DNA of 64,000 nt from positions 1 to 64,000 of the IMG/VR virus record IMGVR_UViG_3300017987_000085; one strand, written 5' to 3'. The notes below the pieces were generated by a model. The model saw nothing but the letters and a program-made list of their open reading frames with translations, searched no databases and was not told the origin of the DNA. This document shows, one piece after another, positions 4,347 to 59,393 of the stretch; position 1 is the stretch's first letter; every line of letters begins with the position of its first letter. The DNA comes from a virus. Made by a program: the position numbers and the translations under genes.

Positions 4347-4509
4347 AAGCGCCGAAGTATCAGTTCCGCGGCTCATGAAGGAGATGTCGATCCAGGTGAC
4401 AGTGAAGGGGCGACGAAGGGCTTTGTTGAGATTGCGGATTGCGCGACCGGTCTTCTGCTTGGCAGCGCATCTCGCCGGCTTGGCGCATGCTGAGTTGGTG
4501 AAGGAATGA
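4339..4509 (+). CDS. 56-residue hypothetical basic protein
   Basis: It starts at the ATG at 4339 after GGGGTAG, overlapping the end of the XRE gene by 8 nt, and its stop overlaps the glycosyltransferase start (4506). The N-terminal half is polar; the C-terminal half has a basic/hydrophobic segment RRRALLRLRIARPVFCLAAH that could be amphipathic and membrane-associating. No family is recognised. Confidence 0.55.
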   Translation: MDRSAEVSVPRLMKEMSIQVTVKGRRRALLRLRIARPVFCLAAHLAGLAHAELVKE

Positions 4510-5522
4510 AGGTAGCAATTATCGCCGACGTCCGGGGTTGGGCGTTGGACCACATCGCCCAGGGTATCCAAAAGCACAATCCAGACCCAGGCTTGACGAT
4601 TGATATCTTCTATGAGCGTGAGCTTCGGGCTCGGCGTTCAGAGATTGAGATGGTTGCCACGTACGATGTGCTCTATCCCTTCAGCCTCTTCCAGGCAAAT
4701 TTTCTTCGTCGACAGCTGCCAGAGATCGATGGGCAGTACATCACGACGGTGCATATGGGGCCGCTGGGGGGCAATGGCCGACCGGGTACGACGCCACCGG
4801 TAGATTGCTATGATCGCATCCTTTACGACGCTGTCAAAGCAGCCAAACGATTGTCGACCGTTTCGCCACAGTTGCAGACCATCTGGCAGGCAGCCCGGCC
4901 GGAGACGGCATATCTCTGTGTTGGCGTTGAAGCATCAATCTTCTATCCAGTAGCGCGCAAGCCACAACACCGCGGAGCCCGGCCGCTGCGTATCGGTTGG
5001 GTTGGCAATCCTGGCAAGCCATACAAGCGCTTCGAGCTGGTAGAAGCCGCATCCGATCTGCCTGGCGTGGAGCTATGTCTCGCGGCATGGAGCAGCGGCT
5101 GGGGCAAACCACAGACGGCGGTGCCGCGCACCCTCGAGCAAATGGGGGATTTCTACCGGGGAATCGATGTGCTGTTGTGCATGAGTGACCACGAAGGGCT
5201 TCCGACACCAGCGGTCGAAGCAACAGCATGCGCAGTACCGATTGTGTCAGTTGACGTTGGGATCATCCGAGATCTTGTCGATGACAGTGTGACGGGCTTT
5301 GTCGTTGAGCAAGACGCTGAGGTGGCGCGCGATCGTTTGGCTTGGCTGCGCGATCACGAAGCCGAGCGTTGTGCAATGGGGCAACGCATCTACGAACGCG
5401 GCAAGGCTCGCTATTGGCCAAACGTTGTGAGCGATTGGATTGAGTTCATCAAAGGGGGGGAGGTGCAACATGCTCGGTGTCCTATGTCAAGCGTGGCCGC
5501 CACCGACGTGGCAAGGGGCTAA
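4506..5522 (+). CDS. GT4-like (GT-B fold) glycosyltransferase
   Basis: This 338-residue protein has GT-B features: an N-terminal Rossmann start (MKVAIIADVRGWALDHIAQG), a second Rossmann entry near residue 165 (LRIGWVGNPGKPYKRFEL), and the GT4 donor-site signature EGLPTPAVEATACAVPIVS near 235 with its conserved Glu residues. It should move a sugar from a nucleotide donor to a glycan or other acceptor in the cytoplasm. The acceptor cannot be told. It overlaps the next gene by 53 nt and leads a run of sugar genes that suggests modification of a host surface polymer. Confidence 0.85.
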   Translation: MKVAIIADVRGWALDHIAQGIQKHNPDPGLTIDIFYERELRARRSEIEMVATYDVLYPFSLFQANFLRRQLPEIDGQYITTVHMGPLGGNGRPGTTPPVDCYDRILYDAVKAAKRLSTVSPQLQTIWQAARPETAYLCVGVEASIFYPVARKPQHRGARPLRIGWVGNPGKPYKRFELVEAASDLPGVELCLAAWSSGWGKPQTAVPRTLEQMGDFYRGIDVLLCMSDHEGLPTPAVEATACAVPIVSVDVGIIRDLVDDSVTGFVVEQDAEVARDRLAWLRDHEAERCAMGQRIYERGKARYWPNVVSDWIEFIKGGEVQHARCPMSSVAATDVARG

Positions 5523-6486
5523 GGGTTGGCAGGCGGTTGTCACATACGAGCTCGTCAAAGCATTCTGTGATCTGGGGGTCGATGCGCAGCCGGTAGTCTG
5601 GGATGCAACATTGCCTGGGCGGCGGTATGCGTTGCCGGTGATGGACCATGCGATCGTCGTCACGGAACTGGCGCGAAAGGCTATTCAGGCCGATGGCGAG
5701 TATCGAGACGCTCTCCGGGCGAATGTTGACGGGAAGCTCTGCCTGTACATCGATGCACCGTTTGGCAAGTGGGATGGGTTCGATCTTGCCTTCACCGGCG
5801 AGAATTGGGGGCGGAATGAAGACGAGGGCTATCGTCGAGCACATTCCGAATTCGTGTGGGCTGGTTTTGGCTCGGACGAAGTGTTCCACCCAGCAAGACA
5901 CCATGACGGTATTCGCCGGATCATCTCGCAGTACCCAGACATCACATTGCTTGGTCATTTCGAGAAAGAGTGGGAGATGGCTCAGCGGGTGATGATGCGT
6001 GTAGCCGAGGAAGACTGGGAGCATATTACGCTGTCGTATGTGGCGCCGTGGTCGGCAGGGGGATGGGTTGTTGCGCGTAAGACTGAAGATGCGCGTTCCG
6101 GCCAAGAGGGCGATCTGTGGACGCCAGTTGTCGGAGAGGGATGTACCAAGGAAATCTGGCGCAAGTGGGAGGGCGTTGGCCGCTATGAGCCGTACGGGGT
6201 GCTCCCGGAGATCTTTGCACAGGCCGATGTCTACCTTGACCTCCGTGGTGGCGCGCTGGATTTAACACGAATCGATGCAGCCTATGCTGGTCTGTCGGTT
6301 GTGGCCCATGCCAAGAACTGGCGAGATAGCATGCATGGGCAGATTCCCGCGGTGGAGTGGAAGACGGAAGATGACCTGTACGACGTGCTGCAGGGACCGT
6401 TTGACCGCTGGCAGATTGCCACCGATGCCCGCGAGCACACGTGGACGAAGGTAGCTCTGCGAATGATCGAGGCGCTGGAGGAGTAG
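5470..6486 (+). CDS. probable GT-B glycosyltransferase
   Basis: The start ATG at 5470 follows GGGGGGGAGGTG; an earlier in-frame ATG at 5440 lacks such a site. The 338 residues look like a divergent GT-B enzyme: N-terminal WQGAKGWQAVVTYELVKAF, a middle LYIDAPFGKWDGFDLAFTGENWG, and a late YEPYGVLPEIFAQADVYLDLRGG that resembles the donor-binding end of such enzymes. The match is weaker than for the upstream gene. It is one nucleotide out of phase with the acyltransferase gene that follows (TAGTG overlap). Confidence 0.65.
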   Translation: MLGVLCQAWPPPTWQGAKGWQAVVTYELVKAFCDLGVDAQPVVWDATLPGRRYALPVMDHAIVVTELARKAIQADGEYRDALRANVDGKLCLYIDAPFGKWDGFDLAFTGENWGRNEDEGYRRAHSEFVWAGFGSDEVFHPARHHDGIRRIISQYPDITLLGHFEKEWEMAQRVMMRVAEEDWEHITLSYVAPWSAGGWVVARKTEDARSGQEGDLWTPVVGEGCTKEIWRKWEGVGRYEPYGVLPEIFAQADVYLDLRGGALDLTRIDAAYAGLSVVAHAKNWRDSMHGQIPAVEWKTEDDLYDVLQGPFDRWQIATDAREHTWTKVALRMIEALEE

Positions 6487-6911
6487 TGGGTGCATTCGCG
6501 GCGGCGGAGAAAGCACGCACGAAAGGCGTGAGCATTGGCGCGGGAACGTTGCTGTTCGGCACACTTGACAGCAACGTGCATCCCGAACTGATCACCATTG
6601 GCAAGGGCACGCTGATTGCCTCCAACGCTAATGTGCTTTGCCACGGCAGTGTCGAAGGATGGTTGCCTGTTACGGTCGGCGACTACTGTCACATTGGATG
6701 GGGAGCTCTGATCCTGCCAGGCGCTGTGATCGGCAACAACTGTGTTATTGGTGCGCGCGCCGTGGTACCCAGAGCTCGGCCGATACCCGACAACTCTGTT
6801 GCAGTAGGGAATCCAGCGACGGTAGTCAAACAACGGGACCCTGAGGAGCTGGCGCGATTCAAGCGCAGGATGGAACAGCGGATCAAAGACGACGGAACCG
6901 GCGATGGATAG
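6486..6911 (+). CDS. hexapeptide-repeat (left-handed beta-helix) acyltransferase
   Basis: From the GTG at 6486, which overlaps the previous stop and has GGAGGAG upstream, the protein has 141 residues. It contains the isoleucine-patch hexapeptides of acetyltransferase trimers: VTVGDYCHIGWGALILPGAV, then IGNNCVIGARAVV, closing with NSVAVGNPATVV. The family transfers acetyl or acyl groups from CoA to sugars. A candidate catalytic His lies in ANVLCHGSVEG. It is a tandem paralogue of the next gene. Confidence 0.85.
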   Translation: MGAFAAAEKARTKGVSIGAGTLLFGTLDSNVHPELITIGKGTLIASNANVLCHGSVEGWLPVTVGDYCHIGWGALILPGAVIGNNCVIGARAVVPRARPIPDNSVAVGNPATVVKQRDPEELARFKRRMEQRIKDDGTGDG

Positions 6912-7374
6912 ACCATGGCTGGACGGTTGCCATGACGGGCGGATGATCACGATGAAACAGGAGAAGCTGCGGGAAGCGGTTCGCGCCGAAGCGGAGAAAC
7001 GTCGCCGGCGCGGTTCGCATATTGGCGAGAACACTCGATGCTGGGGCTACACCGACATTGTGTTCCCCGGCAAGGTGACGATCGGGCGGAACTGTGTCCT
7101 TGCCACGCGCTCGGCGGTGCTGACTCATGGCGTATTCGCCACGCTCGAGCGGGGTAAGCCGGTAATGATTGGCGACAACTGTTATCTCGGCTATGGTGCG
7201 ATCGTCGTACCCGGGGTCATCATCGGTGACAACTGCGTCATCGGTGCTGGGGCGGTTGTGACGTCGGACATTCCATCGAACTCGATTGCTGTAGGGAATC
7301 CGGCACGGGTGATTGGCCAGCGGGATCCGGAGGAGCTCGCACTGTACATCGAAACCCGAGAAAGAGGAGACTGA
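6904..7374 (+). CDS. hexapeptide-repeat acyltransferase, tandem paralogue
   Basis: This 156-residue product overlaps the previous gene by 8 nt and shares its plan: a basic helical N-terminus (EAEKRRRRGSHIGENTRCWG), hexapeptides VMIGDNCYLGYGAIVVPGVI and IGDNCVIGAGAVV, and the same ending NSIAVGNPARVIGQRDPEELA. A likely catalytic His sits in AVLTHGVFAT. The matching C-terminal QRDPEELA in both proteins points to gene duplication. It probably O-acetylates a sugar made or attached by neighbours. Confidence 0.85.
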   Translation: MDRPWLDGCHDGRMITMKQEKLREAVRAEAEKRRRRGSHIGENTRCWGYTDIVFPGKVTIGRNCVLATRSAVLTHGVFATLERGKPVMIGDNCYLGYGAIVVPGVIIGDNCVIGAGAVVTSDIPSNSIAVGNPARVIGQRDPEELALYIETRERGD

Positions 7375-8036
7375 TGGTTACCAATGCAGATTGCAGAGAA
7401 CGGATGAAGGATGTTGAGGCTGTCCGAGCAATAGCGGAGAAGCTGGTCGTGACGTTCGCCGGGCGACTGCCGGTAGCTGGTTGGTGTATGCATGGTGGCA
7501 CAGCGCTCTCGGCTTATCTCGGCCGAGATAAGCCGGAAGGCGGCGTGGTGTTGCCCGGAGACAACGATATTGACGTCGGAATCCTCGCTGAGACGGTCTC
7601 TCCGGCGGCGCTGGTCGAGGCATTCGACGCAGCGGGATTCAGGCACGGCTACTTCTTTCACGACAAGCTATTCCCGCAGGTTGGTGTGGTCCTTCGCTTC
7701 TTCTTCGACGGTGTTCCGGTCGATTGCTACTGGTTGTACAAGCGCGGACGGAAGCGCTGGTGGGTCACGGCGCCACGGGTGGCGCACGTACTTCCGGCGT
7801 ATCTGTTTGAGCGGCTCGGGACGGCGACGTTCCTCGGCGTCGAGATGTCGGCGCCGGATCCGCTTGAGGCGTACGTCCACAACAAGTGGAAGCGCGTCGG
7901 CAATCGCTTCCCCGGTAAGAGCCAGGGTGGTGAATGCCTCGACTTTGATTGGGAGTGGCCGATCTACGATGACCAGGCAGCATTTCGTGAGGCGTACGAG
8001 CAACGAACAGGAGAGCCGTATCTGAGGAAGTTTTGA
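7374..8036 (+). CDS. LicD-like nucleotidyltransferase-fold protein
   Basis: The protein has 220 residues and carries the LicD/fukutin type signature: a GWCMHGGTALSAYL segment at about residue 40 and then DNDIDVGI at about residues 63-70, where the acidic residues should bind metal. Family members attach phosphocholine or similar groups to teichoic acids or lipopolysaccharide. The remainder (VDCYWLYKRGRKRWWV, a Trp-rich basic patch) is typical in style. Its start overlaps the acyltransferase stop by one nucleotide. The substrate is unknown. Confidence 0.75.
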   Translation: MVTNADCRERMKDVEAVRAIAEKLVVTFAGRLPVAGWCMHGGTALSAYLGRDKPEGGVVLPGDNDIDVGILAETVSPAALVEAFDAAGFRHGYFFHDKLFPQVGVVLRFFFDGVPVDCYWLYKRGRKRWWVTAPRVAHVLPAYLFERLGTATFLGVEMSAPDPLEAYVHNKWKRVGNRFPGKSQGGECLDFDWEWPIYDDQAAFREAYEQRTGEPYLRKF

Positions 8037-8048
8037 TAGGGGGTAGAG

Positions 8049-8387
8049 ATGGCAAGGTACTGGGCAGACGTGAAACAGCCGGCGAGTGGGATTCTGGGTA
8101 GCGCATCGGTCTGCGGGCCAGGTGAGGTAGATGAAAGTTCCGAAAGACATGTGTTCAAGACCTTTGTGGAGGCTCGTGGCGAGGACCATAATCTCGACCC
8201 GACTGCTGCAATGAGAAGAGCTTTGGCCGATGCGCAGGAACTCGCTGCGCAGATGAACGTTGCATTCTGCCGTGGATTGAACGGTGAGGGTGAGCCGGAG
8301 GAGTTGCCCCTCTTCGAACAGAATGCCTTTCAGGACGGGAAGCTGGCCCGAGAACAGGGGGTGATGAACAGAGCCCAGACGAACTGA
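8049..8387 (+). CDS. 112-residue hypothetical protein
   Basis: A GGGGGTAGAG sequence precedes the ATG. The protein is polar and probably helical in its middle (AAMRRALADAQELAAQMNVAF), without Cys motif, signal peptide or membrane segment. It lies between the LicD-like gene and the transporter genes. No family is recognised. Confidence 0.55.
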   Translation: MARYWADVKQPASGILGSASVCGPGEVDESSERHVFKTFVEARGEDHNLDPTAAMRRALADAQELAAQMNVAFCRGLNGEGEPEELPLFEQNAFQDGKLAREQGVMNRAQTN

Positions 8388-8467
8388 CGCACATGGCGGC
8401 TTGCTCGCGATGCCAACGATAGACCAAGACGCTGAAACCTAGACACACACTGTATGGGGAGGAACGA

Positions 8468-9325
8468 ATGAGCAAGCGACTTGGTTTGCTGTTGGCTGTT
8501 TTCTTGATGGGCTTTGCGGTGTTCGCCGTGGCGACGCCCGCGGAGCTCGTGTTTGTGAACGTACCTTCCGGATCGGCGGAGGATGATGTCCTCAAGTTCC
8601 AGCCGATTCTCGACCATCTCTCTGAAGAACTTGGAATCCCAATTCAGTACATCGTGGCAACGGACTATGCCTCGGTCCTTCAGGCAATGCTCTATGGCCA
8701 TGCGGACATGGCGCGCGTCGGAGGATTCACCGCTATTCAAGGTGAAGTGCTGTTCGGCGCATTCCCGATTGCCCGCGACATCAAGACCAACACGGGTCAG
8801 CCATATGACTACGCCTACGTATTGGCGCGCCCAGAGCTCGGCCTCGATCCTGAAACACTGACGCCAGAGGATCTGGTCGGTCTCACGATTGCCTATGTGA
8901 GTCCAACGTCGACCAGCGGATGCTTGGTGCCGAAGTGGGCGCTGATGGAGTTCGGGGTCGATGAAGCCGACTTTGCCGAGATCTTCTATGCAGGGTCGCA
9001 TGATGCAGCGCTCCTAGCGCTCGCGAATGGTACGGTTGACCTGGCATGCTGCAACGGCTTCCGTCTTGGGAAGAACCTCGCAGCGGGAAACATCACGGAG
9101 AGCCAGTATGTGACTGTGCTGCAGTCGCTCCCAATGCCGACGAACCCGATCATTGTGCGCCCGGGGCTCGGTGAGGATTTCATTGCAGCGTTGACTGGTG
9201 CGTGGTTGACGGTGCCAGCGGAGGCTTGTGCTCCGTTCAAACTGGATGGATTTGCATCAGTGACACCCACGAGCTACGACATGATCCGCGAGCTGATCGA
9301 GACGTTTGACCTGGCGCCCGAGTAG
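8468..9325 (+). CDS. phnD: PhnD-type ABC transporter substrate-binding protein
   Basis: The protein has 285 residues with a clear Sec signal peptide (residues 1 to about 23, SKRLGLLLAVFLMGFAVFAV). The mature part follows the phosphate/phosphite/phosphonate-binding family: DDVLKFQPILDHLSEELGIP, DYASVLQAMLYGHADMARVGG, then YVSPTSTSGCLVPKWAL near residue 140. It should capture a phosphorus compound outside the membrane and deliver it to a permease, here encoded next with an overlap. PhnD-like proteins also bind other anions, so the ligand is open. The leader GGGGAGGAACG matches the recurrent 5' motif. Confidence 0.85.
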   Translation: MSKRLGLLLAVFLMGFAVFAVATPAELVFVNVPSGSAEDDVLKFQPILDHLSEELGIPIQYIVATDYASVLQAMLYGHADMARVGGFTAIQGEVLFGAFPIARDIKTNTGQPYDYAYVLARPELGLDPETLTPEDLVGLTIAYVSPTSTSGCLVPKWALMEFGVDEADFAEIFYAGSHDAALLALANGTVDLACCNGFRLGKNLAAGNITESQYVTVLQSLPMPTNPIIVRPGLGEDFIAALTGAWLTVPAEACAPFKLDGFASVTPTSYDMIRELIETFDLAPE

Positions 9326-10127
9326 CGGCCTTGTCCGCTGGGTAGTTATCGTAGCGCTGATGGTCGCTGTCGGGCTCTGCATGGTCGAAACGCAGACCAG
9401 CCCCGCAGCGGCCGTCCGCGGCTTGCCGAACATGCTGCGGTATGTCCGCGGGATGTGGCCGCCGGCATGGGCTGCAATTCCGGGGCTGCTTAAGCCACTC
9501 CTCGAAAGCGTCGAGATCGCAGTCGTAGCAATTGCCTGGGCATCGCTAGGCGCGCTGATCCTAGGATTGCTTGCCGCCCGGAACATCAACTCGATCGGAT
9601 GGCTCTACCAGTCGGTTCGGATCCTTCTGAATACCCTACGCGGCATCCCAGCGCTTCTGTATGCGCTGATCTTCGTGGCAATGGTTGGGCTGGGTCCGTT
9701 TCCCGGGGTGTTGGGGTTGGCGTGCCACTGCACGGGCTCTCTCGGTCGCTACTTCGCCGAGGCCTTCGAAACCTCGGATCCTGGATTGATTGAAGCAGGC
9801 AAGTCTGTTGGCGCACGGAAGGCACAGATCATCCTGCATTTTGTGCTACCGGATGTGTTGCCCTTGCTGATTGGCTACATCCTGTACTACTTCGAGTATT
9901 GCATCCGTACGTCGACGCTGCTTGGATTTGTCGGAGCCGGCGGCATCGGCGTGCCGCTCTTGGTGGCCTTGCGGCTATTCCGCACGCGTGAGGTAGCAGC
10001 AATCCTGATGTTGATCTTGGCGGCGGTGTTCACGCTGGACCGGGCCAGCGCGTTCATCCGAAGGCAAATCCTTGGGGGAGACCACACGTTGCATCGGCTC
10101 TCTCGATCCCGAAAGAAGGTGACGTGA
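9306..10127 (+). CDS. phnE: PhnE-type ABC transporter permease
   Basis: Starting from the TTG at 9306, which overlaps phnD by 20 nt, the protein has 273 residues with about five or six membrane spans. Its cytoplasmic EAA loop, the contact with the ATPase, is visible in YFAEAFETSDPGLIEAGKSV followed by GARKAQII. The end (GGIGVPLLVALRLFRTREVA) resembles PhnE. The start is uncertain; the first in-frame ATG is at 9360. No PhnC ATPase gene lies beside it, so a host ATPase would be needed. Confidence 0.8.
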   Translation: MTWRPSSGLVRWVVIVALMVAVGLCMVETQTSPAAAVRGLPNMLRYVRGMWPPAWAAIPGLLKPLLESVEIAVVAIAWASLGALILGLLAARNINSIGWLYQSVRILLNTLRGIPALLYALIFVAMVGLGPFPGVLGLACHCTGSLGRYFAEAFETSDPGLIEAGKSVGARKAQIILHFVLPDVLPLLIGYILYYFEYCIRTSTLLGFVGAGGIGVPLLVALRLFRTREVAAILMLILAAVFTLDRASAFIRRQILGGDHTLHRLSRSRKKVT

Positions 10128-10603
10128 TGTTAGAGCTTCTTGTGGGGCTTCCCGGTAGCGGGAAGTCGACCTATGCACGGCAAAAGCTGGCCGAAGCAGT
10201 GGCCAACGATCGGCCAGGCAGTGTCGCCGTCGTCTCGTTTGACGCCATCCGGCGCGAGGTGTTCGGCTGCGGATACGTGCCAGAAGTTCAAGAGTCGGTG
10301 TGCGTCCTCTTCAAGCAACAGCTTTCTCTCTTACTGGCTGGCCGACGGCGAGTGCTTGTCGACAACATGAACTTGCGTCGGGCGTTTCGCGATCGATGGG
10401 CGCAGATTGCCCGGCAGTATGGACATCAGGTCATCGTGACGGAGTTTCGGGGCGACCCCGAGGAATGTTGGCACCGGGTGCTTGTACGCGGGTTGCCGTT
10501 TCGCGGTGGTCGAGACGCTTTCGATCTGTTGGTTCAACGCAGGGAAGAGGACCGCGCAGAACACGGAGCAAATGGTTCGGATCAGTGGTTTGAGGAGACC
10601 TAA
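10127..10603 (+). CDS. AAA_33-type P-loop kinase (polynucleotide-kinase-like)
   Basis: This 158-residue protein starts with a textbook Walker A (LLVGLPGSGKSTYARQ). It then shows SFDAIRREVFG, which fits the substrate Asp of this family, the strand VLVDNMNLRRAFRDRW, and a lid-like DPEECWHRVLVRG. This layout is shared by bacterial PNK-like and zeta-toxin-like kinases that phosphorylate nucleic-acid ends, sugars or other small molecules. Within this sugar-gene operon a small-molecule kinase role is equally possible. It overlaps both neighbours (TGATG, TAATG). Confidence 0.75.
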   Translation: MLELLVGLPGSGKSTYARQKLAEAVANDRPGSVAVVSFDAIRREVFGCGYVPEVQESVCVLFKQQLSLLLAGRRRVLVDNMNLRRAFRDRWAQIARQYGHQVIVTEFRGDPEECWHRVLVRGLPFRGGRDAFDLLVQRREEDRAEHGANGSDQWFEET

Positions 10604-11301
10604 TGGATGCCGTAATCGTAGACGGGGGAGAGGCAAATCGGCTGGTGGGGTATGCCCCGCCGAAGGGGCTTGTTCCGGCAGGTCCGAATGGCGAGACGCT
10701 CCTCGAGCTGTTGCTCGATCGAATGGCGGCCATCGGTGTGCGGCGCAAGCCGACGCTCATCCTTGGCTATCCATCGGCGAAGCGATTCTTGAGACATCCA
10801 TCGGCGAAGCGCGTTGACGTGATGCTTGACTATGAAATGGCCGGACCGTTGCCGGCGCTGGCGCAGGCGGCGAAGCGATTCGAATCGGCAGACGTGGTGA
10901 TCACGACTGGCGATGCGTGGTTTTCATCGTTGGCTCAGCTTGGGATGACATCACTTCATGAAACGGAGGCCGAAGAAACGGTGCGCGTATTGACGGCGCC
11001 CGCGCAGTTGGGTCGGCCGCAGATCCTTTCTGCCGGCCAACGCAAGCCAATTCCGTACATCGGTCGGTTTGCCAAGGATGGGACCGTGTCGTATGCCGGC
11101 GCGCTACGTGTTGTGCGTTGTCCGGCGTACTGGCGGGGTGTCCGGGCTGGCGTCAACGCAGGGATGAAATGGATTGTCCGGCCGCTGCTCTACCTGCCGG
11201 CGGGGACGGTGAAGCTGTTGCCGGTGACAGGGGAGTGGGGACATGTCAATACGCCGGCAGATCTCGATCGGGTACGAGAGATGTGTAACGGGAGGAGGTG
11301 A
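10603..11301 (+). CDS. sugar-phosphate nucleotidyltransferase-like protein
   Basis: The 232-residue protein resembles GT-A-fold NTP transferases. The first loop, VDGGEANRLVGYAPPKGLVPAG, keeps the spacing of the GxGxR...PK nucleotide-binding motif, though the usual AAG is replaced by VDGG. Later come VITTGDAWFSS (metal/substrate region), GALRVVRCPAYW and a final EWGHVNTPADLDRV typical of these enzymes. It would activate a sugar phosphate as an NDP-sugar for the nearby glycosyltransferases. The altered first motif leaves activity uncertain. Confidence 0.7.
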   Translation: MDAVIVDGGEANRLVGYAPPKGLVPAGPNGETLLELLLDRMAAIGVRRKPTLILGYPSAKRFLRHPSAKRVDVMLDYEMAGPLPALAQAAKRFESADVVITTGDAWFSSLAQLGMTSLHETEAEETVRVLTAPAQLGRPQILSAGQRKPIPYIGRFAKDGTVSYAGALRVVRCPAYWRGVRAGVNAGMKWIVRPLLYLPAGTVKLLPVTGEWGHVNTPADLDRVREMCNGRR

Positions 11302-11303
11302 AC

Positions 11304-11408
11304 ATGGCGACGAAATGTCCAGGAGGCAAGATTCGCAGTGGCGGAAAAGGTCGCGGCCTTGGAAAAGGTGGCGGTAGGGGACCAATCGGTCAACCGGGAC
11401 CGAAGTAG
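11304..11408 (+). CDS. 34-residue Gly/Lys/Arg-rich basic protein
   Basis: The peptide follows the nucleotidyltransferase by 2 nt with an excellent GGAGGAGGTG ribosome site. It is almost entirely Gly, Lys and Arg after a CPGGK start, with a low-complexity centre (GGKGRGLGKGGGRGP). It could bind nucleic acid or polyanions. A terminator follows 41 nt later, so it ends this operon. Confidence 0.55.
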   Translation: MATKCPGGKIRSGGKGRGLGKGGGRGPIGQPGPK

Positions 11409-11449
11409 CGTTGTTGTGTGAATACGCAGCATTCTACCTCTGGATGGAC

Positions 11450-11485
11450 AAAGGGCTCGCCTTCGGGTGAGCCCTTTGTTGTTGT
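11450..11485 (+). terminator. rho-independent terminator
   Basis: A hairpin with arms AAAGGGCTC and GAGCCCTTT around a CGCC-TTCG-GGT top is followed by GTTGTTGTGT. It closes the transcription unit that runs from the portal side to the Gly-rich gene; the epimerase gene starts 29 nt after it. Confidence 0.85.
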
Positions 11486-11513
11486 GTCCCTCGAGACAGA
11501 AGGGGGCCACACC

Positions 11514-12425
11514 ATGCGGATTCTCGTCACCGGCGGTGCCGGTTTCATCGGATCACACATTGTCGATGCCTATACCCGTGCAGGACACGAAGTGGCTGTG
11601 CTCGATGACCACTCCACTGGCAAGCCAGCCAATCTGAAGAAGGCAGCACAAAGCGGGTTGCTGACCGTGTTCGAAGGCGATGTCTGCGATGCAGGATTCG
11701 TCCGTGAGATCTTCGAAGCTTATCAACCCGAGGTTGTCAACCACCATGCAGCGCGTGTCGACGTTGCGTGGTGCGAAGAACACCCGGAGGAGACGCAAGC
11801 GACCAACGTCGACAGCATGGGCGTGCTTCTCTCTGCGGCGTCGACAGCGCCGGTGAAACGGTTCATCTTCGCAGGTTCAGTTGGGGCATACGGTGAATGC
11901 GATAAGCCAGCTATCGAGGATTGGCCATTGATGCCGGAAGGTGTCTACGGTTGTTCGAAAGCTGGCGCCGAAAGACGACTGACCGATGCAAGCATGCAGC
12001 AGACGCCCACTCGAATCATCCTCCGCTACGCCAACGTTTATGGTCCGCGTGCATCGAACGGTGTCGTGCTGGCTTTCGTGCGAAACTGGATGACGCAAGA
12101 GCGTCCGACGATCTATGGTGACGGTGAGCAGGTTCGTGACTTCGTCCATGTACGCGACGTGGCTCGCGCCAACCTGCTTGTGCTGGATCACCCGGAGTTG
12201 CCGGAAGGATCGCTCCGGATCTTCAACATCGCCTCGGGCCGTCCAGTAACGGTCAATAAGCTTTGGGCAATGGTCTCGGCGGAGCTCAAGGTAGCGAGAT
12301 CGGCAGACATCGTGACCAGTCGCATCGATGCATCCCGCGCGGCCGAGGAGCTCGGATTCGAGCCGAGCGAGACGTTGCATTCAGGTGTGATTGAGTTGCT
12401 TGCACATTTCGCTGAGGATTTGTAG
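11514..12425 (+). CDS. NAD-dependent nucleotide-sugar epimerase/dehydratase
   Basis: From the ATG at 11514 the protein has 303 residues, close to the family norm. It opens with the Rossmann dinucleotide motif VTGGAGFIGSHIVDAY (residues 4-19), keeps a catalytic Ser in IFAGSVGAYGE near residue 122, and a YxxxK pair in VYGCSKAGAE near 145. It ends with the usual FNIASGRPVTVNKLW substrate domain. Relatives are UDP-glucose 4-epimerases and dTDP-sugar dehydratases; the substrate is unknown. It starts a new unit after the terminator and supports sugar-donor synthesis. Confidence 0.9.
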   Translation: MRILVTGGAGFIGSHIVDAYTRAGHEVAVLDDHSTGKPANLKKAAQSGLLTVFEGDVCDAGFVREIFEAYQPEVVNHHAARVDVAWCEEHPEETQATNVDSMGVLLSAASTAPVKRFIFAGSVGAYGECDKPAIEDWPLMPEGVYGCSKAGAERRLTDASMQQTPTRIILRYANVYGPRASNGVVLAFVRNWMTQERPTIYGDGEQVRDFVHVRDVARANLLVLDHPELPEGSLRIFNIASGRPVTVNKLWAMVSAELKVARSADIVTSRIDASRAAEELGFEPSETLHSGVIELLAHFAEDL

Positions 12426-51746: not shown

Positions 51747-52532
51747 ATGGGCATGCAGGTCATTGCGGTGGCGAATCAGAAAGGCGGGGTGGCAAAGACG
51801 ACAACCGTTGCATCGTTGGCGGCAGCCTGGGCGGCGATGGGTCACCGTGTGCTGGCGATCGATCTGGATCCTCAGACTTCACTTACGGCAGCCACGCTTG
51901 GGGAAAGCTACGCAACGGGCCGCGAAGCCACACCAACGGCCTTCGATGCCCTCCAGGGCACAGAGTCGCTTCAATCGTGCCTGTGTGCTGCCTCAGAGGG
52001 GTTCTCCGTCACTATCGGGTCTTACAATCTGGTCGGCGCAGAGAAACTCTTCGGGGAGGATCACCCCGAGATGCGTCTCCGTGACGTGCTCGACCCGGTC
52101 CAGAGTGAATTCGATCTCGTGTTGATTGATTGCCCGCCAGGCCTCGGGATCCTAATGCTCAACGCCCTCACGGCAGCCAATCATGTGCTGATCCCCGTGG
52201 CGCCGCGCTACTTCGACATGCGCGGTCTGGCTTTCCTCCTTGACACGATTGACCGTGTGCGAGAGGCGTTCAACCCAGAGCTCGCGATCCTTGGGATCCT
52301 TCCGACCATCGTTCGCCGGCGATCGCGGCACAAGCGTCAGGTGATCGGCATCCTCCAAGATAGGTTCGGTGACTTACTCCTCGATCCCTCGATCCCAGAA
52401 ACGGTCCGCTTCTGGGAAGCGCCAAGTTCACTCTCCTCAATCCTCACGTACGAACCCGACTCACTCGGCGCCCGGGCGTATCGCCAGGTAGCTAAGGAGG
52501 TGCTCGAGCGTGTCTCAGTCGTCACGAGATGA
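51747..52532 (+). CDS. parA: ParA-family partition ATPase
   Basis: The protein has 261 residues, starting MGMQVIAVANQKGGVAKTTT with the deviant Walker A KGGVAKTT (residues 12-19) and its signature Lys. VLAIDLDPQTSLTAATLG and LVLIDCPPGLGILMLNAL complete the ATPase. ParA positions plasmid copies before division. No N-terminal HTH is present, so it is a small type-Ib-like ParA, which often pairs with an RHH-type partner. A small downstream gene overlaps it. Confidence 0.9.
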   Translation: MGMQVIAVANQKGGVAKTTTVASLAAAWAAMGHRVLAIDLDPQTSLTAATLGESYATGREATPTAFDALQGTESLQSCLCAASEGFSVTIGSYNLVGAEKLFGEDHPEMRLRDVLDPVQSEFDLVLIDCPPGLGILMLNALTAANHVLIPVAPRYFDMRGLAFLLDTIDRVREAFNPELAILGILPTIVRRRSRHKRQVIGILQDRFGDLLLDPSIPETVRFWEAPSSLSSILTYEPDSLGARAYRQVAKEVLERVSVVTR

Positions 52533-52863
52533 CACCGTGAATCGTAAGGGCGTCGACGTCCTGTTTGGTACTCGACAAGACGGAATATCTGAATCCCGAT
52601 CTGTTCGAAAAGCTGAACCCCCCTCTACCCGAAAAACAGAATCTCCGAATGTGCGAAAAGCTGAAAAGGAGAAAGACGCCTTCTACCTACTCAGCTCGAC
52701 GATCGACACGATCGAGACACTCCGGCAAGCACTTCGCCGTGAGCATGGTCTATCTCGTCGTGCAGCCTCCAAGTCTTCCGTCGTCGACGCGGCAATCCAT
52801 CTGATTGCCAACCAATCTGCCGCACTGGCTGCCTGGCTCAAAGATCATTCCACGGCTGATTGA
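52510..52863 (+). CDS. probable ParB-like centromere-binding partner
   Basis: The GTG at 52510 overlaps parA by 23 nt. The 117-residue protein has an N-terminal low-complexity part with three copies of an RKxE octapeptide (VRKAEPPSTRKTESP, NVRKAE) and a C-terminal helical domain (TIETLRQALRREHGLSRRAA, VVDAAIHLIANQSAAL). The place after parA and the size fit small ParB partners. The family is not certain. Confidence 0.6.
   Translation: MSQSSRDDTVNRKGVDVLFGTRQDGISESRSVRKAEPPSTRKTESPNVRKAEKEKDAFYLLSSTIDTIETLRQALRREHGLSRRAASKSSVVDAAIHLIANQSAALAAWLKDHSTAD
52595..52670 (+). repeat. 24-bp repeats in the parB-like gene
   Basis: Three units, about 24 bp apart, share the core CGAAAAgCtGAA near 52605-52672. 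Upstream of parA, at 51682-51735, lie similar ATTCTG/TTTCG words in the other orientation. These could be binding sites (a centromere) as well as coding sequence. Confidence 0.45.
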
Positions 52864-52888
52864 CTGGCTGTTCCTACTGTCCTATACT
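52860..52888 (+). promoter_or_regulatory. sigma70-type promoter
   Basis: TTGACT (52860-52865), 17-nt spacer, TATACT (52883-52888). It would drive the gene at 52904 with a leader of about 9 to 21 nt. The -35 begins inside the end of the parB-like gene. Confidence 0.65.
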
Positions 52889-52903
52889 CCATGAGCTTCG
52901 AAA

Positions 52904-53464
52904 GTGAGCCTGGGCATGGTGGCGGACAAACTGAAGGATCTCATCAACGACGACGACCAGCTCCGTATGTCGTATTGGGAACTACAGAAACGTGTCAAGC
53001 TCATCACGACTGATCCTCGATTCGATACCCTTGCTCCTCGTTGGTTCGATCGCAGCGGAGCACACGGCGCATGGCAAGTCTACGCCGCCGGCCGCACGAT
53101 CCTGCTCCGATTGCAGGAGATTGAGAGTGATGGCTGTTCAATCAATGCGGCACTCCAGCAACTTCTTGCAGAGATCCTCGAGTCTGCTTCCGCGGAAGAG
53201 GAGATCCCAGAATCATCTTCCCCGCAGTCCTCCGGCCCTGCTGCAGTCATGCTACAAGTGGAGCTTGACACGCTCCGGAGCGAACGGGATGACCTGCGCG
53301 GGCAACGCGACGATCTTCGCTTCGAACGCGATCGTCTCCTTGGGGTTATCGAATCGATGACGTTGGCGCTTCCGCGACCAAAGGATGTTTCTTCGATCGA
53401 CGCAGAATCCGAGCCCACAAGACCCAAGCGCCGTCTGTTTGATCGTCTCCTCCACCGTGACTAG
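52904..53464 (+). CDS. MerR-like/coiled-coil protein
   Basis: Start GTG at 52904 (or ATG at 52916). The 186-residue protein has a folded N-terminal part (YWELQKRVKLITTDPRFDTL, WQVYAAGRTILLRLQEIE) that looks like a MerR-type or partition-type HTH, then a coiled coil (LDTLRSERDDLRGQRDDLRF) and a basic tail. It may bind DNA as a dimer. The family is uncertain. Confidence 0.5.
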   Translation: MSLGMVADKLKDLINDDDQLRMSYWELQKRVKLITTDPRFDTLAPRWFDRSGAHGAWQVYAAGRTILLRLQEIESDGCSINAALQQLLAEILESASAEEEIPESSSPQSSGPAAVMLQVELDTLRSERDDLRGQRDDLRFERDRLLGVIESMTLALPRPKDVSSIDAESEPTRPKRRLFDRLLHRD

Positions 53465-53518
53465 CATGCAGTAGTCCTCCCGAGCTATACTCACTTCCCG
53501 GAAACTAGGAGGTGGGTC

Positions 53519-53812
53519 ATGAACGACAAGGACATGGTACGGCAAGCATCGACCCCTACAGAAGCTAGTGGGTTCAGCGTTGGCTCTTTCTTCACCGCCA
53601 TTGCATCCCTCTTGGTCTTGTTTTCCCAGCCTACGCTGGGTCTCGTGCTGGCTGTTTTGGCAATCACTCTCGCAGCCTTTGGTCTACGCCATCCCAACGG
53701 TAGATGGATGGCGGGAGTTGGATTGTCTCTGGGCTTGGTACATGTCGTGTTGTGGGTCTTTTTTGTAGGCGGGTTGATGCTGACAATGATCAATTGGGAG
53801 ACTCTAGGCTGA
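53519..53812 (+). CDS. small multi-span membrane protein (DUF4190-like)
   Basis: AGGAGGTGGGTC precedes the ATG. The 97 residues contain three hydrophobic segments: SFFTAIASLLVLFSQPTLGL, LAVLAITLAAFGL and GVGLSLGLVHVVLWVFFVGG. DUF4190-type proteins occur in bacteria and phages without known activity. A TATACT lies upstream (53485-53490 region) but has no clear -35. Confidence 0.6.
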   Translation: MNDKDMVRQASTPTEASGFSVGSFFTAIASLLVLFSQPTLGLVLAVLAITLAAFGLRHPNGRWMAGVGLSLGLVHVVLWVFFVGGLMLTMINWETLG

Positions 53813-53855
53813 AGTCGCCATATCTACACTTCTTGTCTAGGCTTTGGCGCCATTG

Positions 53856-53890
53856 TTGACATTTGGTCGTCTACATGTATACTGGTAGAC
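53856..53890 (+). promoter_or_regulatory. leaderless promoter with perfect inverted repeat
   Basis: TTGACA (53856-53861), 16-nt spacer, TATACT (53878-53883), ATG at 53891. Arms GTCTAC (53869-53874) and GTAGAC (53885-53890) flank the -10, a likely operator for autoregulation by the RHH protein that follows. Confidence 0.75.
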
Positions 53891-54103
53891 ATGCCTCAAG
53901 GGGAGAATGGAACGAATGAGCAACAGGCGAGGAGCACCACTATCCGTGTATCGCGCGATGTCCACGATGTGCTTTGGGACTTCGCGCGTTCTCGCAGGCT
54001 TCCACTGAAAGCGGTTGCGGAGACGGCAATCCTCACGTACGTAGAGTCTAATGAATCCTCTGTAGTACTTTCCAAGCAATCATCGCCCTGTTCGGGGAGA
54101 TGA
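53891..54103 (+). CDS. RHH-type repressor, leaderless
   Basis: The ATG lies 7 nt after the -10, so there is no room for a Shine-Dalgarno. The 70-residue product contains TTIRVSRDVHDVLWDFARSR, RLPLKAVAETAILTYVE, a ribbon-helix-helix like CopG/Arc repressors. It likely binds the inverted repeat over its own promoter. Confidence 0.7.
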   Translation: MPQGENGTNEQQARSTTIRVSRDVHDVLWDFARSRRLPLKAVAETAILTYVESNESSVVLSKQSSPCSGR

Positions 54104-54149: not shown

Positions 54150-55196
54150 ATGGGCGAGCAAGATCGAATACCCCCCTCAGTAGTGACACCAGAGGCACAG
54201 GACATGGCGCAACGACACGGGGCCCCGCCGGAGGAACCATCCCGAGAACCCTCTGCTGAGGTTATGCGAGAGGAGAATCAGGCGGATGAGGAAAGGGTAC
54301 AGCAACCTGAGGCAGCGCAACCCGGGACTGAACTAGACGAGTCAGCCCTTACGCCGACGTCAACAGATGGTGAAGTCGTGCCGGAGCCATCACGGTCGCT
54401 ACCTGCAAACCAACAGGGACCTACCGGCACTGCGGTTGCCACGGAGGCACCGCCTCCGCCGAAGGGTACCCAGTTCATCGACGAAGGGGATGTGTGGCTC
54501 GCTCGGGTTACTTTCTCCGGCAAGCTAGGCCGTTTCATTGATGAACTCACCGGGGAAGAGGAGAAAGAGTTCGCTGTTGTCCCCCTGCTCGTTTCGAAGT
54601 CTCGTGTCTACTTCTACGACGCGAGGCGCGATCCGGACGAATTCGGCGAGGCGGTAATCCTCTGCAAGAGCTCCAACGCGATGGAGCCAACAGATAGCCA
54701 TCCAAAGCTCTGGACAGTTCATGGCGTATCACCGGCGACGGTCTGCATGGATTGTCCTTTCTCGCAATGGGGTCCGAACAAAGAACGCCCGAAGTGTCGG
54801 CTAAGCTACAACTTCCTGTGCGTGAAGCCGGGAGAGACGGAGCCGTTCCGGATCTCTTTCCACAGCACTTCGACTCGAGCCGTTCGTCAGTTGCTTTCGC
54901 AGATCAAGCGATCCCGTCGGCCGATGTTTTCCTATATCCAGCGCTTACGCGCCGAAGAGCAAAAAGGCCCAGAGGGTACGTACTACTCGTTGGCTCTCGG
55001 GACACCAGAATGGATTCCCGACACCGATCTTGGGCTGTACGACGATCTCTACGACGAGATCATGCGGTATGGCGATGCAGATGTTATTGATCTGCTAGGT
55101 GGGGGGCGCACGATTCAAGCATCAGCAGGCACGTCATCCAACGGCAAGTCTTCACCGGCCCCACAACCGCGCAGCACCGAAGAGGTGCCCTTCTAG
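54150..55196 (+). CDS. SSB-like protein with acidic C-terminal tip
   Basis: The 348-residue protein has a disordered acidic N-terminus (about 110 residues), then a beta-rich central domain (GDVWLARVTFSGKLGRFIDE, SKSRVYFYDARRDPDEFGEA, VCMDCPFSQWGPNKERPKCR with a CxxC..C site) and a disordered end finishing STEEVPF. The tip EEVPF resembles the DDIPF tip that bacterial SSB uses to recruit partners. A phage ssDNA-binding role is likely but the family is not certain. Confidence 0.6.
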   Translation: MGEQDRIPPSVVTPEAQDMAQRHGAPPEEPSREPSAEVMREENQADEERVQQPEAAQPGTELDESALTPTSTDGEVVPEPSRSLPANQQGPTGTAVATEAPPPPKGTQFIDEGDVWLARVTFSGKLGRFIDELTGEEEKEFAVVPLLVSKSRVYFYDARRDPDEFGEAVILCKSSNAMEPTDSHPKLWTVHGVSPATVCMDCPFSQWGPNKERPKCRLSYNFLCVKPGETEPFRISFHSTSTRAVRQLLSQIKRSRRPMFSYIQRLRAEEQKGPEGTYYSLALGTPEWIPDTDLGLYDDLYDEIMRYGDADVIDLLGGGRTIQASAGTSSNGKSSPAPQPRSTEEVPF

Positions 55197-56470: not shown

Positions 56471-56740
56471 ATGGTTTTTGGAAAGGACTTGCAGAAAGCA
56501 CGCCAAGCATGTCAGTTGTCCGTCGGTCAAGTTGCTCGATCGATCGGCAAAGACAGGACGACCATTTGGCGATGGGAGAATGGAGTCACGTCTCCAACGC
56601 TGGATGATTTATCCGCATTGCTGAAGGCGTTCCCTGCCATCGCGTTTACTCCATTGCGAATCACACGAGGACTACACATCTGCTCGCTTGAGACATGTCC
56701 GGGGTATGTTCCCGACCAACGCGCACATGAGTTGAACTAG
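56471..56740 (+). CDS. XRE-family regulator, leaderless
   Basis: Starting at ATG 56471, the 89 residues contain a full XRE HTH: FGKDLQKARQACQLSVGQVA, RSIGKDRTTIWRWENGVTSP, TLDDLSALLKAFPAIAF. The rest has CSLETCPG and a polar tail. The frame is open far upstream, but the promoter and the domain border both favour this start. It may control early genes or lysogeny. Confidence 0.7.
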   Translation: MVFGKDLQKARQACQLSVGQVARSIGKDRTTIWRWENGVTSPTLDDLSALLKAFPAIAFTPLRITRGLHICSLETCPGYVPDQRAHELN

Positions 56741-57102: not shown

Positions 57103-57113
57103 GCGTTGATTCT

Positions 57114-57198
57114 GAGGGTCACGAAACTCGTCTCTCACCGAGAGGGTCACGAAACTCGTCTCTCACCGAGCAACAACGGTGAGGGCGTTTTGCTTGAA
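57114..57198 (+). repeat. 28-bp tandem repeat and hairpin in a leader
   Basis: Two exact 28-bp units at 57114-57141 and 57142-57169, each holding CTCTCACC. They are followed by the stem CTCACCG (57163-57169 region) with CGGTGAG (57177-57183) and GGCGTTTT. CTCTC-ACC-GAGAG can also pair across the unit border, so two folds compete before the gene at 57208. This looks like an attenuator. Confidence 0.6.
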
Positions 57199-57207
57199 GG
57201 AGGAACA

Positions 57208-57768
57208 ATGAGAAACGTCATAGTGGCAATTCTACTGGTTGGATTGATCAGTTGCATGGCTGTGGCTACCATCCCTGGCTGGAATCGATCTGAGCTCATA
57301 CAGTTTATCCGTGATGAGATGACCCCACTCGAACACCTTCTTAAGCCAGGCGATGTCTTTGACTATGATCACCTGATCTTTGGCTCGTGCTATCTGAACG
57401 ATACCTGGGAAGAAGTCGTCTGCGTGCCATTGACCAATGAATCCACGTCCTACAAGGAAGCCATCGCACTGGGAGATCAGTACCTGTGGTCAGAGGTGGC
57501 CCCACTCATGCTGTACGGGTTCTACGTTCTGCCCCCAGTGGAAGCATTCCACAGCTTTGAAGCGAACACGCCATATCTTGCACGCGCAAGTGGTTGGGGA
57601 GAGGCAGAGTATGTGGACCAGAACGGCGCGTTTGTGCGAACACTACAAATCACGTGGGCTCGCCCGACAGGCTCGTACGCCTACGTCACCATGATGCCTC
57701 ACGGCGGCATGTCCAATATCGTGTTCCACATGACAACGAGCGGATGCGCAACGACGAACCAGAATTAG
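57208..57768 (+). CDS. secreted 186-residue protein
   Basis: GAAGGAGGAACA precedes the ATG. The first ~21 residues are a Sec signal (RNVIVAILLVGLISCMAVAT); the Cys at 16 does not give a perfect lipobox. The mature protein (SELIQFIRDEMTPLEHLLKP, GDVFDYDHLIFGSCYLNDTW, SYAYVTMMPHGGMSNIVFHM) has no known domain. It is a monocistronic unit with its own leader and a strong 3' hairpin pair, suggesting an accessory (moron) gene. Confidence 0.65.
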   Translation: MRNVIVAILLVGLISCMAVATIPGWNRSELIQFIRDEMTPLEHLLKPGDVFDYDHLIFGSCYLNDTWEEVVCVPLTNESTSYKEAIALGDQYLWSEVAPLMLYGFYVLPPVEAFHSFEANTPYLARASGWGEAEYVDQNGAFVRTLQITWARPTGSYAYVTMMPHGGMSNIVFHMTTSGCATTNQN

Positions 57769-57811
57769 CCCCAGCAAAGCTGGGGAGACCGGGTGCTGCC
57801 AACACCCGGTC
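57769..57811 (+). terminator. tandem hairpins, probable terminator
   Basis: CCCCAGC-AAA-GCTGGGG (57769-57785) is followed one base later by GACCGGGTG / CACCCGGTC with a 7-nt loop (57787-57811). No T-run follows. They sit directly at the stop of the secreted-protein gene and probably end or protect its mRNA. Confidence 0.6.
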
Positions 57812-57898
57812 GGAACAAATGAGCACAGTGACTCGAAAGTCACCATACCGGCACGGGCAGTATACCGACATGCTCTGCGGGCGACAAGAGACCAACAC

Positions 57899-57944
57899 TT
57901 GACGCCCGCGGGGTGTGTCGAGTAGAGTGTGATATCCGTCACAC
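57899..57944 (+). promoter_or_regulatory. promoter with inverted repeat past -10
   Basis: TTGACG (57899-57904), 18-nt spacer, TAGAGT (57923-57928). GTGTGA (57927-57932) and TCACAC (57939-57944) form an inverted repeat around TATCCG, where the transcript would start. It includes ATCCGTCAC, shared with the 51.66-kb element. Confidence 0.65.
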
Positions 57945-57976: not shown

Positions 57977-58147
57977 ATGGGCATGCGGCATTCTTTGCTA
58001 GGGATGACAGCAGGTTGGCACCTGCATGAAGACAAAGACTCCCTGGCAGAGGGAGAAGTTGGGGAAGGTTCTCTCGGGCAGCAACTGAGAGGCCCGGTTG
58101 CTTTGAGAGTGTCAGCTCGGTTGGCGACCGAGGAGACGTGTCCATGA
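57977..58147 (+). CDS. 56-residue hypothetical protein
   Basis: The recurrent leader GGGGAAAAGGAACAAT precedes the ATG. The polar peptide (RHSLLGMTAGWHLHEDKDSL) has no motif. It is the first gene after a regulated promoter and lies just before the initiator. Confidence 0.45.
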   Translation: MGMRHSLLGMTAGWHLHEDKDSLAEGEVGEGSLGQQLRGPVALRVSARLATEETCP

Positions 58148-58187
58148 TAGGTCACGTCCCGGGCAATGTCAAGTAGAGGAGGTCCGG

Positions 58188-59393
58188 GTGGGTGAGTACG
58201 AGGGCGCGCGCGTCACAGATGGTCGTATGCCTCCTTTTGCATGGCAGGAGAAAGAAGCCTTGCGTCTAATGCGGGATTTCCTGGCAGGAAAAGCGCTAGC
58301 TGCCACACGACTGCTCTACGATGTCCTCACAGAGATCGTCAGTGATCATAAGTGGAACGATACCGTCAACACCACCCAGCTTCCCGGCGGAGCAAAAACC
58401 ATTCTTAGCTACTCCGGTCTTACGCACGAAGCGTACCGAGCCGGCCGCAACGGCCTACGGATCCTTCGCCTTGTCGAGGTTACTGAGAACCGCAATGATC
58501 AAGGACACCGCACAGGACACACCATTCGTCTCCTACGTTGCCCGATGCGACCAGAGAAGACAAAGGGCGTCAAAACCCAGTCCCTAAAGGAGCTTTCCCT
58601 AATGTTTGATTTCCTAATTGGGGAATCCCTAATTGAGCCTTCCCCAATTGCGGAAGTCCCAATTGGGGTTTCGGACATTCAAGTAGTAGAAGAAGTTGGG
58701 GTTGTAGAAGAATCTCAACCTGTAGAAGAAGTACTTCTTTCCTCGGGCGGGAGCCCGAGGCCTAAGCGCGAACCCGCCAAACGAATGAAGAAAGAAGACC
58801 TCAATCGCCTCACCGAACACTACGCAGCCATTCGCGGAGCTCGACCGCAGGGTAACGCGTGGAAACCGATTCAGCAGGGGTTCCGGCAAATGGTGGCTGT
58901 TGAGGGCTACACGGTTGAGCAGGTCATCGGCTGCATGGACCGGATCGTCAAACTGGGCTGGACGTGGACGATCAACACGGTGCGCACCTGGATTGCGGAT
59001 TTCGCCGCTGGAACGATGCCGACAAAGGGTCTCGAGGCACACCACGAACCATCGCAACTGCAGCCGGGCACCAGCCGCGGGCACGATTACTACCTCGGCA
59101 CGGGAGGGTGCCGTCTATCGCCGCCGGGTCCCCCGCCGACACGGGACGAAGCGGCCGGAGTGATCTGGGATCAGGCAATGGAGGCAGCTCGAGATGAGCT
59201 ATCGTTCTCCGAGTACGAGACGTGGTTCAACGAGGTGACACCGGTTGGCGTGGAGAACGGGCACCTACGGGTAGCGGTGCCGGATCCGTTTACGAAGGGT
59301 GGTATCGAGCGACGATATCGGGGACTGGTCGAAGAGCTTGTCACGAAGGTTCGTGGTGAGCCGACAGAGCTGATAATCGAGGTGGCGGAATGA
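58188..59393 (+). CDS. replication initiator with C-terminal DnaA-domain-I-like fusion
   Basis: GTG start with AGAGGAGGTCCGG. The 401-residue protein has an N-terminal winged-helix-like region (RLLYDVLTEIVSDHKWNDTV, HTIRLLRCP), a hinge coded by the iterons (about residues 130-165), a helical middle (KKEDLNRLTEHYAAIRGARP, GWTWTINTVRTWIADFAAG) and a C-terminal part from about residue 325: WDQAMEAARDELSFSEYETW, FNEVTPVGVENGHLRVAVPD, a pattern of DnaA domain I, which recruits helicase. It is predicted to bind the iterons and load host DnaB. Confidence 0.75.
   Translation: MGEYEGARVTDGRMPPFAWQEKEALRLMRDFLAGKALAATRLLYDVLTEIVSDHKWNDTVNTTQLPGGAKTILSYSGLTHEAYRAGRNGLRILRLVEVTENRNDQGHRTGHTIRLLRCPMRPEKTKGVKTQSLKELSLMFDFLIGESLIEPSPIAEVPIGVSDIQVVEEVGVVEESQPVEEVLLSSGGSPRPKREPAKRMKKEDLNRLTEHYAAIRGARPQGNAWKPIQQGFRQMVAVEGYTVEQVIGCMDRIVKLGWTWTINTVRTWIADFAAGTMPTKGLEAHHEPSQLQPGTSRGHDYYLGTGGCRLSPPGPPPTRDEAAGVIWDQAMEAARDELSFSEYETWFNEVTPVGVENGHLRVAVPDPFTKGGIERRYRGLVEELVTKVRGEPTELIIEVAE
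58581..58672 (+). repeat. iterons: probable replication origin inside the initiator gene
   Basis: Six consecutive units of 14-16 bp begin TCC(C)(T/C)AA: at 58581, 58596, 58612, 58626, 58641 and 58657. The best four share TCCCTAATTG-type cores. An A/G-rich stretch with three GTAGAAGAA words (58683-58735) follows, like a melting region. Iterons within an initiator gene recall lambda O. Confidence 0.8.

Follow-up and report, generated by a model that had tools for sequence, protein, structure and literature searches.

The gene at 58188-59393 probably (at a rough estimate, 0.7) encodes a lambda-O-like replication initiator whose origin lies inside its own gene and which would recruit the host helicase, or a host partner, through a borrowed DnaA domain I. 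The analysis covered a window of 64,000 bases, i.e. bases 1-64000 of an IMG/VR virus record of 67,936 bases, and the features that bear on the proposal are collected in Table 1. The lambda-O-like layout is itself present: direct iterons and an adjoining unstable tract lie within the initiator gene. This upholds the sequence-only reading, which had described six direct repeats and an A/G-rich stretch embedded in an initiator gene after the manner of lambda O; the array, the shuffles and the stability minimum given below all agree with it.

Table 1. Features of the candidate initiator gene and of the region upstream of it (positions in the window)
Feature	Position	Strand	Remarks
Promoter-like site, candidate initiator mRNA promoter	57899-57928	+	TTGACG-18-TAGAGT; consensus match only
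Candidate antisense RNA over initiator leader	58039-58172	-	promoter-like site, structured RNA, terminator-like hairpin
Partial iteron 5, inverted (CCTTCCCCAA)	58059-58071	-	upstream of gene
Initiator gene, 401 aa	58188-59393	+	GTG start; Shine-Dalgarno AGGAGG at 58177-58182
N-terminal domain, residues ~18-117	58239-58538	+	predicted helices, then beta hairpin; low confidence
Six 15-nt direct repeats, candidate iterons	58581-58670	+	consensus TCCCYAATTGNGGAT; in frame inside gene
Three exact GTAGAAGAA repeats, candidate unwinding element	58686-58730	+	starts 58686, 58704, 58722; 18-nt spacing
Perfect stem-loop, 8-bp stem, 4-nt loop	58741-58760	+	CCTCGGGC-GGGA-GCCCGAGG; adjoins candidate unwinding element
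Middle helical domain, residues ~202-285	58791-59042	+	pLDDT ~75-93; possibly DnaD C-terminal-like
DnaA domain I, residues 326-386	59163-59345	+	PF11638 DnaA_N and fold match

The six repeat units read, in order, TCCCTAAAGGAGCTT, TCCCTAATGTTTGAT, TTCCTAATTGGGGAA, TCCCTAATTGAGCCT, TCCCCAATTGCGGAA and GTCCCAATTGGGGTT, and encode the peptides SLKEL, SLMFD, FLIGE, SLIEP, SPIAE and VPIGV. Units 3-6 are well conserved and units 1-2 degenerate, and AATT is the centre of several units that form imperfect palindromes. The array is the best 15-nt array of the 64 kb, 10 sd over the mean, and TRF independently reports a period of 15 at 58613-58668. Mean pairwise identity among the six units is 0.627, against maxima of 0.47 in 1000 codon-order shuffles and 0.53 in synonymous shuffles with the protein held fixed; since the shuffles never reach the observed value, the repetition has been selected, or copied, at the level of the DNA. 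The + strand of the window carries no copy of GTAGAAGAA beyond the three listed, and three copies arise in none of 20,000 synonymous shuffles, so that the triplet, like the 15-nt units, goes beyond what codon usage or the encoded peptide explains. Nearest-neighbour energies place the stability minimum of the 64 kb here, at 58681-58740 for stretches of 60 bp and at 58570-58739, which covers the repeats, for stretches of 170 bp. The stem-loop beside it (z -3.25) is one of six such stems in the 64 kb. A TAGTAGAAGAAG run resembles the DnaA-trio motifs of bacterial oriC; the DnaA-trio reading of this run was not adopted because neither a DnaA box nor an AAA+ domain is nearby.

Some features of the candidate origin count against its use as such. 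The 15-bp spacing is short in comparison to the iterons of lambda (19-bp sites) and of plasmids (17-23 bp), and at that distance two adjacent sites do not share a face of the helix. There is no DnaA box with one mismatch or fewer within 1.5 kb of the repeats, the nearest one-mismatch box being at 56609, and the window as a whole shows neither an above-chance excess nor a clustering of such boxes. GC skew does not switch at the candidate origin.

By its sequence and its predicted fold the C-terminus is a genuine DnaA domain I. PF11638 (DnaA_N) matches residues 326-386 with 35.0 bits against a curated cut-off of 24.6, and the PDB sequence matches of the C-terminus are DnaA domain I in every case. 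The modelled C-terminal 83 residues superimpose on domain I of B. subtilis DnaA (4tps) with Z 12.1 at 1.9 A (TM 0.78 by target), further fold matches being domain I of Helicobacter and E. coli DnaA and the helicase loader DciA. The sequence-only reading had likened this end of the protein to DnaA domain I and had named a profile or structure search as the check, and a failure to model as domain I as the refutation; the profile score and the modelled fold both bear the likeness out. In E. coli DnaA, Trp6 of domain I serves dimerization and Glu21 and Phe46 touch DnaB (PMC5448010, PMC6127211); the aligned counterparts here are W327, E342 and F368. The remainder of DnaA is missing: Pfam gives no match in the initiator to the AAA+ domain or to Bac_DnaA_C (the box-binding domain IV), and the full-length DnaA model TIGR00362 scores 28.2 bits of the 343.9 needed, matching at model positions 1-73 only.

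The N-terminal domain is presumed, from the order of low-confidence predicted elements, to be a winged-helix DNA-binding domain. It has no match in Pfam, PHROG, NCBIfam or the PDB, and hhalign and separate folding of the domain gave nothing usable. Within the initiator neither the PF04492 Phage_rep_O family (at E<=1 for the full protein or E<=10 for the isolated region), nor the O-like PHROG families, nor HTH_36 (full protein and isolated region) is matched. The domain shows no detectable similarity to the other initiators compared; hhalign against one pBS72-type initiator gives a probability of 0.2%, and alignments to pBS72-type initiators are mostly no better than those of shuffled sequence. 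The whole-protein AlphaFold2 model, made from the single sequence, has a mean pLDDT of 51, i.e. low overall confidence, and the family-less and poorly modelled N-terminus was counted against the reading of the protein as a DNA-binding initiator. The middle helical domain may resemble the DnaD C-terminal domain, its best VIA-align likeness being to DnaD residues 127-207 (Z 8.8, rmsd 4.5, 4% identity); this is suggestive only, and the likeness is kept as a lead because the PF07261 (DnaD/DnaB_2) profile finds no match in the domain.

The region upstream of the gene holds candidate control elements on both strands. The antisense promoter-like site at 58172-58144 (TTGACA-17-TATCAT) agrees with 11 of the 12 consensus positions and is joint-best in 46-64 kb, and a terminator-like hairpin lies at 58055-58039. 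The implied antisense RNA of ~100 nt at 58137-58039 (z -3.2 vs shuffles) overlaps the initiator leader, which is structured too (z -3.4) and has its Shine-Dalgarno sequence within a hairpin. Plasmids that control their copy number by antisense RNA have this arrangement of an RNA over an initiator leader; Rfam gives no match around this leader. The inverted CCTTCCCCAA copy at 58059-58071 is possibly an autoregulatory site, or else due to chance, two copies of its 9-mer being found in 7 of 100 window shuffles. Farther upstream two GC-rich hairpins (CCCCAGCAAAGCTGGGG and GACCGGGTGCTGCCAACACCCGGTC), seen by eye, follow one another at 57774-57827, 3' of the ORF at 57106-57768.

The favored mechanism would run as follows. 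The N-terminal domain, as dimers or oligomers, would bind the six iterons in mid-gene, and the bound initiator would strain or melt the weak duplex at 58681-58740 that holds the three GTAGAAGAA repeats. Flexible linkers would thereby hold out several domain I copies to the host replicative helicase, or alternatively to a partner of it in the host (DnaD, for instance, or a different loader), much as oriC-bound DnaA presents its own domain I to the helicase or loader (PMC6127211). The phage would thus use the helicase-recruiting domain of DnaA without the DnaA ATPase or box-binding domains. The host helicase (or its partner) is taken as the target because the record has no recognizable DnaB, family searches of the whole 67.9 kb having found no DnaB_C domain where control genomes gave matches. 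In this scheme the site would also be the origin used during infection.

Among known systems lambda O is alike in that iterons and an unstable tract lie midway along its gene; in lambdoid origins the iterons are imperfect palindromes and the mid-O tract is AT-rich (PMC7466680). It differs in that O has no DnaA domain I, lambda recruiting DnaB through the separate protein P, and in its 19-bp iterons. Bacterial DnaA shares the sequence and fold of domain I; however, it carries the domain at its N-terminus instead of its C-terminus, together with the AAA+ domain III and domain IV that are missing here.

Initiators that end in a predicted DnaA domain I are already found on several unrelated plasmids and on at least one cultured phage. 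A tblastn search of plasmids with the C-terminal domain finds initiators with terminal DnaA_N, confirmed by Pfam on RPA, TrfA and Rep3 proteins of Rubrobacter, a Rep3_C protein of Hymenobacter, a 232-aa protein of Sulfitobacter, and Bacillus and Paenibacillus proteins with HTH_36. The combination had been thought uncommon when the sequence was first read, a judgment that is not sustained by this recurrence or by phage Jenst, described below. Of all plasmid and phage records that were searched, the Rubrobacter initiators have the closest domain I (34% identity, E 3e-7), likewise C-terminal, but their DNA-binding domains are of Rep3/TrfA type and their 22-23-bp iterons lie upstream of the gene. 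With an HTH_36-type initiator as query, 37 plasmid records were matched, 35 of them over most of the query length; examples are NZ_KX711616 (126-1160), WP_025810484 of pCR3/pSX01705, and Paenibacillus plasmids. The pBS72 replicon underlies common Bacillus vectors. Its plasmid carries at the map start a 344-aa protein, 61.7% identical to the query and with a DnaA_N of 49.4 bits, that is presumably the RepA of the literature, also of the pHT vectors; pBS72 is a B. subtilis plasmid with a studied replication module (PMC8708921). Initiators of this type, from Bacillus-group plasmids, resemble the phage protein in joining a DNA-binding domain to a C-terminal DnaA_N, with parA adjacent in some; unlike it, they have their own HTH_36 N-terminal domain, and the iteron-like repeats (in Paenibacillus and pBS72) are 3' of the gene. 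The alignment of Bacillus phage PJN02 gp030 with pBS72-type proteins extends as far as the C-terminus of the latter; gp030 was not counted as a carrier of domain I because no DnaA_N in it scores above threshold.

The closest parallel is gp004 of Brevibacillus phage Jenst (NC_028805; phrog_26369, which also holds the SecTim467 replication initiation protein). It has a C-terminal DnaA_N (37.6 bits) and a plasmid-type partition gene beside the initiator, and its iterons occupy the stretch of the gene that separates the DNA-binding part from domain I; the combination thus already exists in a sequenced phage. Its iterons are seven, TCAAAATCTGA-like, where shuffles reach at most 4 (codon) or 6 (synonymous), and near-tandem TTATCCACA DnaA boxes lie among them at 2507-2542 of the Jenst record. 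The differences are an HTH_36 N-terminus, an iteron spacing of ~22 bp and the DnaA boxes within the gene. The N-terminal half of gp004 matches O-like initiators, and it has no detectable sequence similarity to the N-terminal half of the 58188-59393 protein. Compared with the viral structure library, the model has as its top match the initiator of SecTim467, the Jenst twin. The Jenst paper reports a ParM partition gene, and the terms searched in it give no mention of an origin inside the gp004 gene (PMC4909266). The full-text literature searched, in which coverage of subscription papers is small, gave no discussion of initiators with a C-terminal DnaA domain I. The present gene is new in that its N-terminal domain falls outside the searched families, its iterons are of 15 bp, its middle domain may be DnaD-like, and a candidate antisense RNA covers its leader.

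Close relatives of the whole protein were not found in phages, IMG/VR or GTDB genomes, the phage search matching only the DnaA_N part of a complete DnaA encoded by a faecal contig. Terminase-based relatives are four weak IMG/VR contigs, with none in genomes; no DnaA_N was found on these four, and a separate search for the initiator, run without a positive control, gave no match. The neighboring gene at 54150-55193 likewise gave no relatives.

The lambda-O-like reading must be weighed against others that take the same domains or repeats differently. That the protein is an initiator whose domain I serves mainly self-association, or binding of host DnaA or of a DnaA regulator, the helicase being loaded by host DnaA or by a phage loader outside the recognized families, is rather unlikely, although it draws on the facts that domain I of DnaA is also a dimerization and regulator-binding module (PMC5448010) and that the dimer residue Trp6 has a retained counterpart in W327. 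Many phage genes here are family-less, and therefore an unrecognized loader could exist. Recruitment of the helicase is nevertheless indicated by retention of the helicase-contact counterparts of Glu21 and Phe46 as well, loading through host DnaA is disfavored by the lack of DnaA boxes near the repeats, and the IstB/DnaC-type loader family is absent from the whole 67.9-kb record (control genomes gave matches).

Two other explanations deny the gene its origin. If the five-residue units were a linker repeat of the protein, or due to chance, the origin would lie elsewhere; their period does fall in a region modelled with very low confidence and probably disordered, but the identity of the DNA is above what the peptide demands (0/5000 synonymous shuffles), and this part of the gene also contains the three GTAGAAGAA copies and the minimum of duplex stability. 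This account is improbable. Even less credit is given to a DNA-binding regulator or anti-host factor in which a domain I mimic titrates the helicase or loader off oriC and the repeats are an operator or a coding repeat. Phage-encoded proteins that target binding by DnaA domain I do exist, e.g. YfdR (PMC5448010, PMC6127211); against such a role, phage Jenst offers a parallel for a gene whose linker region holds both the iterons and the least stable DNA, and families of plasmid initiators repeatedly carry a DnaA_N tail.

The genome around the initiator includes terminase and portal-type genes within the window, and tape-measure-like and baseplate-like ORFs as judged from translations. A ParA ATPase gene lies at 51747-52532, and neither tyrosine integrase nor resolvase families were found in the 67.9-kb record, which is possibly incomplete (controls were positive). 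ParA and a plasmid-type initiator, in a possibly incomplete record without integrase, hint at a phage-plasmid lifestyle. Mycobacteriophages are known with extrachromosomal prophages that carry RepA and ParABS, some with a presumed origin in or beside repA (PMC7157519). The stretch 51747-54103 is a candidate partition module of ParA, an ORF at 52904-53464 and a small ORF at 53891-54103 that, from its translation, resembles a ribbon-helix-helix protein; strong promoter-like sites at 52860 and 53856 stand ahead of the latter two ORFs, respectively. A phosphonate-type ABC transporter pair at 8468-10127, of a substrate-binding protein (PF12974, 155 bits) and a permease (PF00528), represents unusual auxiliary genes for a phage genome, and ORFs like glycosyltransferases, acetyltransferases, nucleotidyltransferases and NAD-epimerases, by their translations, occupy 4506-12425 in the structural half of the phage.

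A broader proposal, less likely than not as a whole, is that the gene encodes a phage-plasmid initiator that unites origin binding, a DnaD-like primosome domain and domain I with an in-gene origin and an antisense leader RNA, so as to bypass host DnaA entirely. Work on DnaA domain I usually treats it solely as part of the four-domain DnaA protein. Its occurrence, to judge from profile matches, on HTH_36, on Rep3/TrfA/RPA and on orphan phage initiators suggests that it was captured repeatedly and independently for helicase recruitment, and this spread over unrelated initiators of mobile elements outweighs the single gene at 58188-59393 in importance. Whether domain I suffices for recruitment without an AAA+ domain becomes testable in small replicons, including pBS72. 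If the phage-plasmid proposal is true, DnaA domain I would act as a portable part for helicase recruitment, acquired again and again by mobile replicons.
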